This document shows, piece after piece, positions 13,354-29,347 of a DNA stretch of 64,000 nucleotides (position 1 is its first letter; each line of letters opens with the position of its first letter). Location: contig JALHNT010000014.1 of assembly GCA_022843385.1 (NCBI GenBank), positions 62,001-126,000 of the forward strand, given 5' to 3'. Made by a program: the position numbers and the translations under genes. The stretch is from Anaerolineae bacterium (GTDB lineage: Bacteria > Chloroflexota > Anaerolineae > Aggregatilineales > Phototrophicaceae). The notes under the pieces were generated by a model, which ran no database searches, was not told the origin of the DNA, and saw nothing but the letters and a program-made list of their open reading frames with translations.

Positions 13354-15156
13354 ATGTTTGGACGCCGCACCATGAACCGCGCTGCCAGAGCCAGCGATCA
13401 AGCCGAAGTCCCGGATGTTCCGATGGATTGGCGGCGGCTCGTCCGCTACCTCAGCCCCTACAAGTTGCGGATGGTCATCGCCATCGTTGCCCTCATCAGC
13501 AGCGCGGCGCTCAGTCTGGTCTTTCCTGGCGTCATCAGTCAGGTGGTCGACTCCGTCTTGCAGCAGCGCAACACCGACCTGCTCAACCAGATCACGCTGG
13601 GACTGCTGGCCGTGTTCTTCGTCCGATCGCTGACCTCGCTGATCGAAAACTACAATCTGAACTGGATTGGCGAGAACATTGTGGTCGATTTACGGCGACA
13701 ACTCTATGCCCATCTGCAAACGCTGTCGCTGGGATTCTTCGCGTCACGGCGGGTGGGTGAACTGGTGTCGCGCCTCTCTAGCGATGTGACGGTGATGCGC
13801 TCGGCGCTAACCAGCAACGTCAATGTGTTGATTCAGCAAACGCTCGTCATGATCGGCGCGATCATCGTCATGCTGACGCTGAACTGGCAGTTATCGCTGT
13901 TCATCCTGGCGCTCGCCCCGCTGATCGTCGGTTTGGGAGCAGCCTTCGGCATCTTCCTGCGCCGCACCAGCACCGAGATTCAGGATGAGCTGGCCGCTGC
14001 AACCGTCGTGACCGAAGAAGTGCTGCAAAACATCCGTGAGGTCAAAAGCTTCGTCCGAGAACCGTATGAGATCAACCGCTTCAATGAGGCGGTGAACAAA
14101 GCGCTAAGGGCGGCGGTGCGACTGCTGCGGATTCGCTCGCTGTTCGGGCCGCTGATCGCCTTTCTGGGCTTCGGCAGTCTGGCGGCGATCCTGTGGTTTG
14201 GCGGGCGCGAGGTGATCGCCGGGCGCTTATCCGGCGGCCAGCTCATCGGCTTCCTGATCTATGGCATCACCGTCGCCGGGGCGCTGGGCTCGCTGGTGGG
14301 GCTCTATACTTCATTCCAGGAAGCGCTAGGGGCAACCAAGCGCGTCTTCCAGATACTCGATACCCAACCGGATGTGACCGATGCGCCGACAGCAGCGACG
14401 CTGGGACGGGCTGAGGGACGGATCACCTTTGATCGGGTCCGTTTCAGCTACGACGAACGACAGGAAGTGCTGCACGAGATTCAGTTGGATATTGCGCCGG
14501 GCGAGATTGTGGCGCTGGTCGGCCCCAGCGGCGCCGGCAAAAGCACGATCTTCAACCTGATCCCCCGTTTCTATGACCCCAGCAGCGGACAGGTACAGGT
14601 TGATGGGCAGGATGTACGCGGCATGACCCAGGCCAGCCTGCGCGACCAAATCGGCATTGTGCCACAGGAGACGCTGTTGTTCGGCGGGACGATCCGCGAG
14701 AACATTCGTTACGGGCGGCTGAATGCGACCGAAGGCGAAATCATGGAAGCCGCCAAAGCGGCTAACGCCCATGACTTCATCATGGAACTACCTGACAAAT
14801 ACGACACCATCGTTGGCGAGCGCGGCATTCGCTTGAGCGGTGGGCAGCGCCAGCGGGTCGCCATCGCCCGCGCTATCCTGAAAGACCCGCGCATCCTGCT
14901 GCTGGATGAAGCCACCTCTAGCCTGGACAGCGAGAGCGAGCATCTGGTGCAGGAGGCATTGGCGCGGCTGATGCAGAACCGCACAACGGTCATCATCGCC
15001 CACCGGCTGAGTACCATCAAGGTCGCACATCGCATCGCGGTGCTGGATAAAGGGCAGTTGGTGGAGCTTGGCACCCATGATGAACTGATGACCAGGGATG
15101 GGTTGTATGCCAAACTGTACACGATGCAATTCCGAGAGGATCTGGTATTGACTTGA
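13354..15156 (+). CDS. ABC exporter, fused transmembrane and ATPase domains
   Basis: The 600-residue half-transporter is of the MsbA/LmrA type. Six membrane helices occupy about residues 35-330. The ATPase domain follows with Walker A GPSGAGKST (about residue 390), Q-loop, signature LSGGQRQRVAIARAI, Walker B ILLLDEATSSLD and the H-loop IIAHRLSTI. It probably works as a homodimer, exporting a lipid, peptide or drug; the substrate is unknown. The start codon has only a weak ribosome-binding site, and ATG at 13372 is an alternative. The stop overlaps the TTG start of the next gene by 4 bases. Confidence 0.95.
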   Translation: MFGRRTMNRAARASDQAEVPDVPMDWRRLVRYLSPYKLRMVIAIVALISSAALSLVFPGVISQVVDSVLQQRNTDLLNQITLGLLAVFFVRSLTSLIENYNLNWIGENIVVDLRRQLYAHLQTLSLGFFASRRVGELVSRLSSDVTVMRSALTSNVNVLIQQTLVMIGAIIVMLTLNWQLSLFILALAPLIVGLGAAFGIFLRRTSTEIQDELAAATVVTEEVLQNIREVKSFVREPYEINRFNEAVNKALRAAVRLLRIRSLFGPLIAFLGFGSLAAILWFGGREVIAGRLSGGQLIGFLIYGITVAGALGSLVGLYTSFQEALGATKRVFQILDTQPDVTDAPTAATLGRAEGRITFDRVRFSYDERQEVLHEIQLDIAPGEIVALVGPSGAGKSTIFNLIPRFYDPSSGQVQVDGQDVRGMTQASLRDQIGIVPQETLLFGGTIRENIRYGRLNATEGEIMEAAKAANAHDFIMELPDKYDTIVGERGIRLSGGQRQRVAIARAILKDPRILLLDEATSSLDSESEHLVQEALARLMQNRTTVIIAHRLSTIKVAHRIAVLDKGQLVELGTHDELMTRDGLYAKLYTMQFREDLVLT

Positions 15157-16052
15157 CGAACACATCGAAAGCCTTAACGCGATTGGCGCTTCGGCTACTG
15201 CTTTTGATCCTGCTGGTGGTTGGCGCTTACCTGTTCTGGTACACCCACCGTCCGCTGCCGAACCCGACCGAGGCTCTCTTATTCACTGGCGTTACCTATG
15301 TCCGCCAGATTCGCCCCGGCCCGATCATCGTCCATGTGGTGCGGATTGATCTGGATACGCCGGGGCTGCGCTTTTTCACCACGCCCTACACGCCCACCGA
15401 TGGTCATAACTTCGCCGCTAAAACCGTCTCACAATTCCTGGATGAGTTTGATCTGCAACTGGCGATCAACGGCGACTTCTTCGAACCCTGGCGTGACAAT
15501 GGAATCTTCGATTATTTTCCCAATGTTGGTGACGGAGTTGACGTCCGAGGGCTGGCGATTTCCGATGGGCAAGTCGTCAGCCAGGGCTATGCGCCGCCCG
15601 AACATACCGCCGTCGTGACGATCACCAGCGACAATCGCGTGTCGTTCAATCAACCGTCTGATGCCACTCACACTGCTATAGCCGGCAACATGATGCTGTT
15701 GCAAGAGGGCGAAGCGCTGCCTATCGATACCCTCAATGATTATCTTGCACAACCCCACCCCCGCACCGTCATCGCGCTGGATGAGTCCGGTCGCACCCTG
15801 CTGCTGATCGTGGTGGATGGCCGCCAGTCGAATTACAGCGAGGGCGCGACGATCCCGGAACTCAATCAGATCATACTGGAATACAGCGGATACACCGCGC
15901 TCAATCTGGATGGCGGCGGCTCGTCCACGCTGGTCAGCGAAAATGCGGCGGGAAACCCGGTCATCCTGAACTCGCCCATTCACAATCGCATCCCCGGACG
16001 GGAACGCCCAATAGCCAATCATCTGGGGGTGTATGTGGACAGAACCCGTTAG
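15153..16052 (+). CDS. Membrane-anchored phosphodiester glycosidase-domain protein (NAGPA type)
   Basis: The 299-residue product has an N-terminal membrane anchor (residues about 8-27) and an extracellular NAGPA-type domain. Its hallmarks are 'DLQLAINGDFFEPW' (residues about 102-115), 'RTVIALDESGRTLLLIVVDGRQ' and 'TALNLDGGGSSTLV' (about residues 248-261), the catalytic-site region of the family that cleaves GlcNAc-1-phosphodiesters and is often found in exopolysaccharide or cell-wall loci. The start is TTG inside the TTGA overlap with the ABC exporter stop, so the two are translationally coupled and may act on the same polymer; this is inferred. Confidence 0.88.
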   Translation: MTNTSKALTRLALRLLLLILLVVGAYLFWYTHRPLPNPTEALLFTGVTYVRQIRPGPIIVHVVRIDLDTPGLRFFTTPYTPTDGHNFAAKTVSQFLDEFDLQLAINGDFFEPWRDNGIFDYFPNVGDGVDVRGLAISDGQVVSQGYAPPEHTAVVTITSDNRVSFNQPSDATHTAIAGNMMLLQEGEALPIDTLNDYLAQPHPRTVIALDESGRTLLLIVVDGRQSNYSEGATIPELNQIILEYSGYTALNLDGGGSSTLVSENAAGNPVILNSPIHNRIPGRERPIANHLGVYVDRTR

Positions 16053-16075: not shown

Positions 16076-18316
16076 CTACCACCACTCGTCAATGACTTCA
16101 GAACGTTTCCTTTTCGTCACCAGTTTGTTCGTTCGGGTTCGCAGTAGCAAACCCAATGTCAGTCCGCCCCCGATCAGTCCTAACAGCACCGGTACGCTGA
16201 CGGCCAGCCGCTGGCTGCTACCCGGCAGCAGCGAGGACTGAGTTGGCGGCGGAAGCGCCGTCGGCGATTGATCTAGCGTGAGAGGGAACGTGGCAGTCAG
16301 GGTGGGCTGAAACACATCCTGGTTGAGTTCGGCCACCACCCCGCCCCGATTGGCGACCGGCGTCCGCAGCGCAGTGAACTCATCACGGATCAGCCGCATG
16401 ACCAGCTCATCCAACTGCTCGACGGTGTAATCCCCCTGCTGACCGGCGGCGATGTCCTCCGGTGTGCCGACGTTCAGTTCAGGCCGCGACGGGTCGGCAT
16501 CAACCGGAGCATTCGGCTGCTGATAGGTCAGGAAGATGAAATGCCCTTGCGTGTACTGGGCGATCTGGCGCAGGATGAACTCGCCATCCTGGGTCAGGCC
16601 GCTGGAAGCAATCGGATGAATTTTGATGCCCTGCCGCGCTGCAATCGCCATGCTGACACTGTAGCTGGTGTCATTGGCATAATCCAGATGCGGTGCGGCA
16701 TCCGCCACCAGAAAGATCAGCTTGACCGTATTCTCGCTGCGCCAGCTCATCTGATTGACCGTCACCCAAAGCGCTTCGTTCAGGGACTCCGGCGTATCCC
16801 CACCGCCATCCGCCTGGACAGCATTCAGCCGTACCTGAAAATCAGCGACGCTGGTGACGAAGTCGTACTGCTGCACCACATAGGCATCGCCGCGATCGCG
16901 GTAATGCACCAGCCCATAGCGCACATCCAAACCCAGGCGGTCAATTTCGCTGGAAATCGCCAACAGGTTATTCTGTAATTGGGCAATCTCGTCGCCCATA
17001 CTGCCGGTCGCGTCCAGCAGGAACACCACATCCAGCCGGGGCGGTTCCGGCACAGGCACGGCATAAGGCAGTTGCACCGTCCAGAGCGAGCCGCGCCGAG
17101 GATCGAGGATGAATTCAAATGACTCTTGGCGGTGCGTGACCACCATGCGGTAAGGCTGTTCCTGCCCATCGGGGAAGAACAGCACCTCGCCCGTCGCAGT
17201 GGTTTCGCCTGCATCAACCAGACTCCCTCCCAGAAAACGCTCGACTCGCGCCCCCAGCACCGGCAAGCCTTCGCTGCTGACCACCTGAATGATCTGGCGA
17301 CGGCTGACATCGACATCATGAACGGTGCCAGGAAACTGGGCCAGATAATTGCGGCGGTACTGTAGATAGCGATCCCAGTTGGCGTTATCGTCAATTTCGC
17401 CGGCACTCAAGGGAATGACATCGATGGGCGTGGGCGTCAGTTGCAGGGGTGGCATGGTCGCGCCCATCGGCACCTGCGTGGAGGAGAACGGCGTCGCCGT
17501 CAGCGCGATGATGGGCGGGATATTCAGCGCCACCGCCGTCCCGGTGAGGGATACATCGCCAAAGATGGTTGTCCCAAAAGGTTCGGGAGTCATCAGGACG
17601 ACTGACGTTGCCACTGTATCATGCACCGGACTCGTGGGTCGTGGCGCGGTGGTCGTCGCCGGCGCGGTCATGGAGGGCAGTGGCGTACCGGTTGGGGTGG
17701 TCGTTACGGTCACTGTTGGCGTAACCGTACTGACTTGAGTTATCCCGCCAATGCCAGGGGTACTCGATGGGGTGATGGTTGTCGTACCCGTCGGCGATGG
17801 GGTAGCGGTGCCGGCGAGGTGGAGGCTGGTCTGCTGGGCAGCCAACGTGGTCAGCGCCAATTCGTCCGGGGTTGGCGTACCTTCGATCATCGCCACAGCC
17901 GAGCCACCCACAGTTGCCACGCCACTGATCGCGGTGACTCCGACAACGGCTGCCGGTGGTACGTTGATATCTCTTACCAGGTTGGAAAAGATGTTTCCGA
18001 CTGACGGACTCAGAAGCGCCATCACCCCTGCCGCGACGAAAACGAGCGCGGCAACTGCGCCCAACCCAACCAGCCAGCCGGATGTCCGACCCGTCGGCGC
18101 TTTTCGGGGTGAGCTTAACAGCGTCGTCCGCAGGCGCTCCTGCTCGGCACGAACTTCGGCGGATGAATAATGGGCGCGTTCGACCAGTTGCCCGATGGCG
18201 AGGTACTGGCGCAGCCGCTCGGCATGGTCGGGATAATCGCGCAGGCAGCTTTCGAGCGCCTCGCCGGCATGGAGGCGGTCAATGCAGTCGTTGAAGGCAT
18301 CCTGAAAATCAACCAT
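16076..18316 (-). CDS. Two-membrane-segment VWA protein, probable anti-sigma regulator of the adjacent ECF sigma factor
   Basis: The 746-residue product begins with a cytosolic helical segment (residues 1-75, with LESCLRDYPDHAERLRQYL) of the kind seen N-terminally in Chloroflexota proteins encoded next to ECF sigma factors. A membrane helix (about 80-105) and a long Thr/Pro/Val-rich linker follow. A von Willebrand A domain (about 425-620) has MIDAS residues DATGS (D-x-T-x-S), a conserved T in GGGDTPESLNEAL and D in VADAAPHLDY. The C-terminus has a second membrane helix and a basic tail. I chose the ATG at 18316 because GGAGG lies six bases upstream and it overlaps the sigma-factor stop (18309), coupling the two. 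An anti-sigma or signal-transducing role is inference from this pairing. Confidence 0.8.
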   Translation of the reverse strand: MVDFQDAFNDCIDRLHAGEALESCLRDYPDHAERLRQYLAIGQLVERAHYSSAEVRAEQERLRTTLLSSPRKAPTGRTSGWLVGLGAVAALVFVAAGVMALLSPSVGNIFSNLVRDINVPPAAVVGVTAISGVATVGGSAVAMIEGTPTPDELALTTLAAQQTSLHLAGTATPSPTGTTTITPSSTPGIGGITQVSTVTPTVTVTTTPTGTPLPSMTAPATTTAPRPTSPVHDTVATSVVLMTPEPFGTTIFGDVSLTGTAVALNIPPIIALTATPFSSTQVPMGATMPPLQLTPTPIDVIPLSAGEIDDNANWDRYLQYRRNYLAQFPGTVHDVDVSRRQIIQVVSSEGLPVLGARVERFLGGSLVDAGETTATGEVLFFPDGQEQPYRMVVTHRQESFEFILDPRRGSLWTVQLPYAVPVPEPPRLDVVFLLDATGSMGDEIAQLQNNLLAISSEIDRLGLDVRYGLVHYRDRGDAYVVQQYDFVTSVADFQVRLNAVQADGGGDTPESLNEALWVTVNQMSWRSENTVKLIFLVADAAPHLDYANDTSYSVSMAIAARQGIKIHPIASSGLTQDGEFILRQIAQYTQGHFIFLTYQQPNAPVDADPSRPELNVGTPEDIAAGQQGDYTVEQLDELVMRLIRDEFTALRTPVANRGGVVAELNQDVFQPTLTATFPLTLDQSPTALPPPTQSSLLPGSSQRLAVSVPVLLGLIGGGLTLGLLLRTRTNKLVTKRKRSEVIDEWW

Positions 18317-18884
18317 GACGCGCCTCCGGCTCAATTAGAATCGAGCGCAGCGTTTCCACCGCGCGGAATTGTAGCGACTTGATGGCGCTGGTGGTCTTGC
18401 CCATGACATCAGCCGTCTCTTGCAGACTGAGATGCTGACCAAAACGCAGCAGCAGCACCTCCTGATGATCGCGCGCCAGCATCCGCAGGGCGTGGCGCAC
18501 CCGTTCGATTGGCACAGCATCCCCGAACAGGATACTGGGGTCGGTCTCGTGTGTACTCGGCATCCATTCCTCCACTTCTTCCAATGGCAGCGGTCGCGCC
18601 TGACCATAGCTACGGTAGGCGGCGTGGCGGGCGACAGTGAACAGCCAGCCGCGCAGGTTCTCACGCGGGGCGCTCCGCTTGCCCAGGCTTTCGATCAGGG
18701 TCACAAACACCTCGCTCACGATGTCCTGCGCCAGCGATTTATCCCCCACCTTCAAGCGCGCGAATTGATACAGCGGGGCAAAATAGCGCTCATAGACCTG
18801 GGCGACAGCGCTCTGATCACGGCGTTGCAGGCGCAGCAGCAGAGCGTCGTCCTCCGTCGGGTCGGGCAAGACCATCCAGATCAT
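18309..18884 (-). CDS. ECF-type RNA polymerase sigma factor
   Basis: This 191-residue sigma-70-family protein has region 2 at about residues 25-95 ('DKSLAQDIVSEVFVTLIESL', then 'LRGWLFTVARHAAYRSY') and region 4 at about 130-185 ('DHQEVLLLRFGQHLSLQETA' plus the HTH 'VMGKTTSAIKSLQFRAVETL'), with no region 3, typical of ECF factors. AGGAGG lies five bases before the ATG. It is coupled to the VWA protein downstream, which probably holds it at the membrane until a signal arrives. The regulon is unknown. Confidence 0.95.
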   Translation of the reverse strand: MIWMVLPDPTEDDALLLRLQRRDQSAVAQVYERYFAPLYQFARLKVGDKSLAQDIVSEVFVTLIESLGKRSAPRENLRGWLFTVARHAAYRSYGQARPLPLEEVEEWMPSTHETDPSILFGDAVPIERVRHALRMLARDHQEVLLLRFGQHLSLQETADVMGKTTSAIKSLQFRAVETLRSILIEPEARHG

Positions 18885-19028
18885 AGGGGCCTCCTATCGC
18901 GAGTCTCTATGACTCATGAGCCGGCAGCGAGCAAAAGGTTGCGGTCAGTTTTCCTGGACTGGAATGGACGGGAGCAACAATGATAAGATGACTTTCTCAA
19001 TCACCGCGCGACAAAGGTTAACCCGTTC

Positions 19029-27655: not shown

Positions 27656-29347
27656 TCACAGGCGTGGTGGTGTGACGCCGGTTTGTTTCTGATATTTGCC
27701 CTTCTTATCCGCATACGAGATTTCGCACTCCGAATCGCCTTCGAAGAACAAGACTTGCGCCAGTCCTTCATTTGCATAAACTTTCGCAGGCAGTGGCGTC
27801 GTGTTGCTGATTTCAAGCGTGACATACCCTTCCCATTCCGGCTCAAAGGGCGTTACGTTCACGATGAGACCACAATTTCGAACGAACACCCCTGCATCGA
27901 GAGCAAAGTTACCGGCCTCAGGTACTGTCAGGCAGTAAACATCATGATCGCCAGGTACTTCGCGAATGGATGCCACCTTATGGTTATTGGGCTGCTCTTT
28001 CATTCCTTTGAAGGCACGCACGACTTCAGGAAAGCGACGGAACACAGCGCGGTCGCAATTCAGCAATCGAGCCGCACCGCGAATTGAGCCTGTTTCGTCC
28101 AGCGCCGCACGTACAACTTCAGCCGTAATTTCTTCTCTCAGGCGAATATTGCGGGCAATGCTTTGTTGTTGGCTGCGCCTTGTTCCATCATCGCGATCCC
28201 AGGCGGCTCTTGATCGCTCACCGATGATTGCGCGATTTTCAGGATCAGCAAAATGCGCCTGCATTTGCTCGCTCTTGAGTTGACGGCGTTCCTCAGTCCA
28301 ACTCAGGATTCGTTGTTGGATAACTTCCTCTCGAATAGTGGCGTAGCGGTCATCATGCCAGAAAGCTTTCGCACGATCACTTTGAGCCTGTGAGTAGCGC
28401 TCGACCCATTCAGGATTTTGAGCCAGACGTTCCAATGCTTCACGAATGGATTGGCTGTGTTCATCCGGGTCGAATTCTGCTCCATAAGTTTCCTGATTGT
28501 GCAACCGGATATGCTCACTGGCGTTCATCCGGGTCAAATTAGTCGGATTGTTATTTCGACGATCAAAATCCATATGATGTCGGTGCGTTCCAGGAACATC
28601 GGCATAAATGCCGTGTCTCAGATTCCACTCATCGGCCAGACGATGTGTGGGGTGGAGTTGTCCATTGACGGGTTGGTAGACGGTTTCATATCCTCGCGCA
28701 AGCTGACGATACAATGGCATCAAGGACTGCCCAGGGCGCATCTCGTGAGCCGGAAGCAGTTGACCATCGCGGGTTACGAATTCGTGATCAGGTGTGCAAT
28801 GAATAATCGAGTCGTTATCCAACGTCACTTCCAGCAGCGCATCCCGTCCAATCCAGCGCGGTTGTTCCAGTAAGGTCACGATGATGCGTCCAAATTGACC
28901 GATGCTGTAGCCCCAGAACAATTCACCCTGCTGGCTCCGTTCAGCCATTTCTTCAAGCGAAGCTGACTGACCGTTGACCAGCGCAACTCGTGTATCCCCA
29001 CGAAAGCATCTTGCATACGTGCTTTTACCAACACATACCGTCAGAACACTGCGCGGGATGCGAAAGTATTCCATCGAACGCGCCAGGGCGAATGAGTTGG
29101 GCGGGATGATGCAGACATCACCCTGGTAATCGACAAACGAACTGGGCGAGAAGTTCTTCGGGTCCACCACTGCCGAGAAAACGTTGGTGAAAATCTTGAA
29201 TTCATCGGCCACCCGCAGATCGTAGCCATAGCTGGAAACGCCGTAGCTGATGACGCCTTCGCGCACCTGCTTCTCGACAAATGGCTCGATCATGCCGTGT
29301 TCCAGCGCCATCCGGCGAATCCAGTGATCCGGTTTCAACCCCATCAT
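27656..29347 (-). CDS. dcd: dCTP deaminase interrupted by an in-frame intein
   Basis: The 563-residue precursor contains a complete dCTP deaminase (deaminates dCTP to dUTP for dTMP synthesis) split by an intein. Residues 1-113 are the N-extein ('[14 protein letters not shown]', '[16 protein letters not shown]', then VGKSTYAR) and residues 492-563 the C-extein ([20 protein letters not shown], catalytic-type Glu about 512). Spliced length is 185 residues, normal for Dcd. The junction follows Arg113 of KSTYAR, equivalent to the Ser/Arg pair that contacts substrate in the family, so the unspliced protein should be inactive. The start is ATG 29347 or 29344, after GGAGGGG. It lies 27 bases downstream of argS on the same strand. 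Confidence 0.95.
27875..29008 (-). mobile_element. Intein with HNH homing-endonuclease-like domain in dcd
   Basis: The insert is 378 residues (114-491 of the precursor). Splicing block A is [13 protein letters not shown]; block B has TPDH (185-188, in [13 protein letters not shown]); blocks F and G are [12 protein letters not shown] and GVFVRN followed by Cys492. The last intein residue is Asn491, but the penultimate residue is Arg rather than the usual His. Residues about 250-284 hold an HNH nuclease core (His257-His258, Asn265/266, Asn270, His279, His283). Residues about 300-400 show NUMOD3-like Trp/Arg repeats, and about 405-448 a helix-turn-helix of the NUMOD type ([20 protein letters not shown]). 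GC is lower than in the exteins by eye. Family assignments of the small DNA-binding modules are less certain than the intein call. Confidence 0.93.

Follow-up and report, generated by a model that had tools for sequence, protein, structure and literature searches.

What could bind a sigma factor gene to the gene of a large membrane protein carrying a VWA domain, and could one control the other? This question is raised by a gene pair in the window, i.e., the whole stretch of 64,000 nucleotides that was analyzed. As first described, the two genes overlap; the overlap measures 8 nt (ATGGTTGA) and recurs at the same length in most orthologues. The locus is organized as follows, with residues of the membrane protein numbered from the ATG at 18316, which was taken as the best start and gives 746 aa.

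18918 to 18945, minus strand: promoter-like element ACCGCAACCTTT-N13-CTC, 33 nt before the sigma ATG, conserved upstream of 10/10 orthologues.
18309 to 18884, minus strand: ECF sigma factor gene, 191 aa, predicted sigma regions 2 and 4 (Pfam, NCBIfam, best solved relative 6dxo_A).
18309 to 18316, minus strand: overlap of sigma stop and membrane-protein start, 8 nt (sequence).
16076 to 18316, minus strand: membrane protein, 746 aa, probable anti-sigma factor with a VWA outer domain (ORF, Pfam, orthologue alignment).
18092 to 18316, minus strand: N-terminal domain (NTD), residues 1-75, predicted cytoplasmic and probably sigma-binding, four predicted helices (family alignments, model, ECF linkage).
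17987 to 18085, minus strand: membrane helix 1, about residues 78-110 (hydropathy).
17417 to 17986, minus strand: low-complexity Thr/Pro/Ala linker, about residues 111-300 (sequence; model pLDDT mostly 20-30).
17057 to 17329, minus strand: small beta domain, about residues 330-420, carboxypeptidase-regulatory-like (model strands; weak CarboxypepD_reg matches).
16364 to 17047, minus strand: VWA domain, residues 424-651, MIDAS-type motif (Pfam, fold, conservation).
16139 to 16210, minus strand: membrane helix 2, about residues 703-726, then a KRKR tail; genus-specific (hydropathy).

Convergent with the VWA gene lies a phosphodiester glycosidase gene (NAGPA, PF09992, E = 2.2e-30; 15153 to 16052, plus strand), of which none was seen at the orthologous loci. 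Elsewhere in the window (27656 to 29347, minus strand), and likewise at L036 56-1747, a dCTP deaminase-like ORF has an intein-like interruption, recognized by eye only.

The 191-aa protein matches Pfam Sigma70_r2 (E = 3.8e-11) and Sigma70_r4 (E = 5.9e-11), both above the cut-off, and having by prediction only regions 2 and 4 in about 190 aa it classifies as an ECF sigma factor. Its closest solved structure is sigma-BldN (6dxo_A, E = 1.4e-17). The top NCBIfam match is the BldN-family model TIGR02952 with 125.5 bits against a curated cut-off of 206, suggesting a protein that is related to the BldN family and is no member of it by this model. Phylogenetically, the VWA-pair sigma factors cluster in one supported group of 13 in the sigma tree (99/97), which also holds three others; two of these go with a different outer part and one is cut by a contig end.

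Absence of the pair from relatives had been named beforehand as a possible refutation. Among 98 genomes searched within the family, the full pair was recovered from 7 of the genus's 16 other genomes and from one genome each of two further genera (G051 and G062), besides a contig-truncated copy in G056; the pair is thus conserved, with a patchy distribution within the genus. The preliminary description also placed the VWA domain between two membrane helices, which is accurate for the genus and not for G051 (L043) and G062 (L046), where the orthologues end after the VWA domain without a second helix. We therefore regard this helix as specific to the genus, not as part of the system itself. Neighboring genes are common within the genus, not to G051 and G062, and for this reason were not used as a clue to function. 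Downstream of the operon, both of these other genera encode a YfbK-type secreted VWA protein (PF12450, VWA, PF12034; L043 11529-13181 and L046 8192-10000), which is a candidate functional partner there. Directly after the pair, G051 also encodes another membrane VWA protein, which is homologous to the outer domain and devoid of the NTD (L043 8941-10923).

The part of the membrane protein that is tied to the sigma factor is the NTD. This segment had been called helical and typical of sigma-associated proteins, and both statements are borne out: the model has four helices (residues 4-16, 21-27, 29-49, and 52-68; mean pLDDT 81.7), and of 70 distinct NTD proteins (all Chloroflexota loci read), 69 are encoded immediately behind an ECF gene, the lone exception beginning at a contig edge. 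A membrane helix follows the NTD immediately in 68 of the 70. On the contrary, no sigma gene was present within 1.5 kb of any of the 24 close outer-domain homologues that lack the NTD. Linkage to ECF genes thus tracks the NTD (69/70) and not the VWA domain (0/24).

The NTD is widespread, being found in 204 of 396 Anaerolineae genomes and 138 of 222 genera in a class-wide search, and a scan of named genomes located it in Anaerolineae, Dehalococcoidia, and Chloroflexaceae. The window's own genome harbors four further NTD pairs with LysM or other outer parts. Among 39 scanned NTD proteins, the outer domains were DUF5667 (22), LysM (15), DUF5666 (11), SH3 (3), and VWA (3), so that outer parts appear to have been swapped while the NTD stayed constant; our literature search found no paper that names DUF5667. 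Distances between NTDs correlate with those between their sigma factors (r = 0.64 over 69 pairs; permutations at most 0.18), a value that partly reflects shared descent and lies below the 0.82 reported for class I anti-sigma pairs (PMC7406223). Two cysteines of the NTD, C11 and C24 (window 18242-18286), are nearly invariant across the family and are both lost together in L046.

We propose that the locus encodes an autoregulated ECF sigma factor and a membrane-anchored anti-sigma factor with an outer VWA sensor, the sigma factor being released after a change in ligand binding, most likely by proteolysis, and we assign this reading a probability of about 0.72. The membrane protein would have the general layout of an anti-sigma factor, with its gene beside the sigma gene and a predicted cytoplasmic domain followed by a membrane helix, and the R/K-rich segment directly preceding helix 1 suggests that the N-terminus is inside. 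Linkage and conservation show association and not its sign, and they would also be compatible with an NTD that acts as a positive partner by recruiting, stabilizing, or delivering the sigma factor at the membrane, in which case loss of the protein would lower sigma activity; nor does the NTD have proven membership in a known class of inhibitors. However, where an ECF sigma factor is co-transcribed with a protein that consists of a small cytoplasmic domain and a single membrane helix, this partner usually acts as an anti-sigma factor (PMC8103513, PMC7406223), and some NTD relatives score to the NCBI anti-sigma model NF052375, with matches below the cut-off in 6 of 39 NTD proteins and a best match of E = 4.7e-8, across NTD and membrane helix, that is still under the model's cut-off. 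A positive role hence appears improbable to us, and we infer an inhibitory one because such sigma partners usually inhibit.

Autoregulation is suggested by the upstream region. An alignment places the element ACCGNAAC(C/T)TTT-N13/14-CTC before 10 of 10 sigma/VWA operons; the fuller block reads T(C/G)ACCGNAAC(C/T)TTT, followed by CTC after 13-14 nt, and ends 33-54 nt before the sigma start. The copy at 18918-18945 is the sole match in the window, with none in 100 shuffles. Across the 10 genomes, the strict pattern has one perfect match per operon and four elsewhere, for one match of the reversed pattern; a relaxed pattern yielded few sites beyond the operon and no excess over the reversed control. 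This placement, at all ten operons and hardly anywhere else in their genomes, makes it likely that the operon is autoregulated, i.e., transcribed by its own sigma factor through an element that this factor would itself use. Other NTD pairs have variants of the element ahead of their sigma genes that share the -35-like part, such as ACCGTAACTTTTT...GTC before the LysM-type pair L003/L028.

Some of the additional sites may mark regulon members. One precedes the gene of a DUF4349 membrane protein in G062 (L159 1501-2583), whose N-terminal stretch resembles, by eye, that of the local VWA protein; another precedes the gene of a 163-aa membrane protein in G051 (L158 972-1528). Both are candidates. 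In the window's genome, two extra sites are found, about 180 nt upstream of a secreted beta-propeller gene and inside a coding ORF.

VWA proteins are common surface proteins. Together with the near confinement of the element to the sigma operon, this would also fit a locus without any signaling, where the sigma factor merely drives the adjacent gene for a VWA surface protein and the NTD is a cytoplasmic anchor. Such a reading is nonetheless very improbable, given that sigma genes co-occur with the NTD and not with the VWA domain, and that a mere anchor needs neither a conserved cytoplasmic domain nor invariant residues kept across swaps of the outer domain.

The outer region contains a VWA domain with MIDAS-type residues: Pfam PF00092 matches residues 429-595 above the cut-off (E = 2e-10), the fold of residues 424-651 aligns to VWA/I domains with a VIA Z of about 20, and the top Foldseek match is an integrin alpha-v beta-8 chain. 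The motif comprises D435-A-T-G-S-M-G-D-E443, D507-T-P-E510, and D539; of these residues, D435, T437, S439, E510, and D539 do not vary across the homologues compared (10 sigma-linked, 24 standalone). Position 508 is variable, unlike D507 and E510, and the metal-site residue of loop 2 is hence probably E510 and not T508. We take the combination of D-x-T-x-S-M-x-D-E with D-x-P-E in loop 2 to resemble an integrin beta I-like domain. The long Thr/Pro linker of the preliminary description is likewise there, predicted by the model to be disordered at about residues 150-300, and it is long and variable among orthologues. The small beta domain behind it matches Pfam CarboxypepD_reg in orthologues, with E-values of 0.001-0.04 that are below the cut-off.

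The standalone homologues are mostly Anaerolineae VWA lipoproteins; they share the same module of beta domain and VWA and the same metal-site residues, but they possess no NTD and no nearby sigma gene, and 16 of the 24 have a lipobox-like motif. Their neighborhoods revealed no common functional theme. At L131, L132, L133, L135, and L138, the lipoprotein gene lies beside, and divergent from, a response-regulator-like gene, which is followed by a diacylglycerol kinase-like gene (sequence start only).

Within our proposal, the VWA domain might alternatively be a structural or assembly platform and no ligand sensor, envelope stress then being sensed through proteolysis of the linker. The long, variable and presumably disordered linker would suit this variant, as would the second, secreted VWA protein of YfbK type after two orthologous operons. 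The invariance of the metal-site residues in sigma-linked and standalone homologues argues instead for retained metal or ligand binding, and we regard the platform as possible, if on the unlikely side.

In the mechanism favored here, that of an anti-sigma factor with a VWA sensor, the cytoplasmic NTD would hold the sigma factor, and the outer beta domain and VWA, carried on a long flexible linker, would respond to a cue at the cell surface, which the integrin-beta-like site probably binds in a metal-dependent way. Binding of the ligand, or its loss, would then lead to release of the sigma factor, much as the preliminary description suggested for a ligand or metal-dependent adhesion event. The membrane protein would most likely be cleaved first and then undergo site-2-type intramembrane proteolysis, and the freed sigma factor would transcribe its own operon and few other genes. 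NTD-sigma binding, inhibition, topology, ligand, and proteolysis are thus all conditional parts of this scheme. RseA is the second model for release by proteolysis. The first, after which the proposed route is patterned, is RsgI (PMC12203970). M50 (site-2) proteases are encoded in the window's genome and also in 14 of 14 control genomes, and as they are nearly universal their presence says little.

To which class would such an anti-sigma domain belong? The Pfam search gave no convincing family match for the NTD, and fold searches with its model (Foldseek, VIA) gave no meaningful match, with Z at most 2.6. Weak Pfam matches to T2SSF occur in 14 of 28 members (best E = 0.0011); they are below useful significance and lack supporting context, and homology to T2SSF was rejected. 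A profile search of the PDB with the NTD likewise returned chance-like matches alone (GspF, topoisomerase). The NTD profile aligned to class I anti-sigma domains with an hhalign P of 0.0037, against 0.17-0.18 for reversed controls, in a register that sets its C-L-R-x-Y-P-x-Y over the zinc motif H-L-x-x-C-P-x-C. The zinc-binding ASDI motif HxxxCxxC is absent from both NTD family alignments, the matching positions reading C-L-R-x-Y-P-x-Y/H, and an HMM search with the class I profile did not rank NTD proteins above background. According to Casas-Pastor et al., a class I anti-sigma neighbor accompanies 72% of the ECFs in Chloroflexi (PMC7406223), and part of the NTD family may therefore already sit in their set.

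What appears new here is the VWA outer domain and an NTD uncatalogued in Pfam, in a pair that is real and conserved and for which an anti-sigma role and autoregulation are probable. No description of an ECF sigma/VWA system was found in the largely open-access literature searched. As a tentative and rather speculative extension, the NTD would be an unrecognized class of anti-sigma domain, a main ECF partner in Chloroflexota, wired here to an integrin-beta-like surface domain such that attachment or surface binding directly controls transcription. More generally, the data point to a large Chloroflexota family of transmembrane ECF switches whose inner domain is constant and whose outer domains can be exchanged. 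With the VWA member, coupling between integrin-like surface binding and a sigma factor could be tested in bacteria, for which the conserved promoter-like element is a ready read-out.

Three known systems invite comparison, of which RsgI and RsbN are those whose way of working the locus would share. Class I proteins of the RskA, RseA, and RsiW type are often membrane-anchored and encoded beside an ECF gene, and the NTD matches their profile weakly; they differ by the HxxxCxxC motif that the NTD lacks, and the direct class I profile search did not detect it. RsbN, the class III partner of sigma-BldN in Streptomyces, is a membrane-anchored anti-sigma factor (PMC8103513), and the sigma factor described here is nearest to sigma-BldN. 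The NTD, however, has no detectable sequence similarity to RsbN: its profiles gave no RsbN match at E up to 10 in the PDB search, although entry 6DXO was in the library. We know of no VWA domain in RsbN.

The third system is that of RsgI and sigma-I in Clostridium thermocellum, where paralogous membrane anti-sigma factors have a cytoplasmic N-terminus, one membrane helix and outer parts that sense different substrates, and where RsgI is cleaved within the membrane by RseP (PMC12203970). The preliminary description knew of no system of this exact layout; the succession of inner domain, helix, and modular outer domain is in fact known from RsgI, and it is the VWA outer domain that appears undescribed in the literature searched. 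No RsgI family was among the Pfam matches of the membrane protein or its NTD, and the partner here is an ECF and not sigma-I. RsgI pairs sigma-I with polysaccharide-sensing outer domains, whereas the present locus pairs an ECF sigma factor with a VWA domain.
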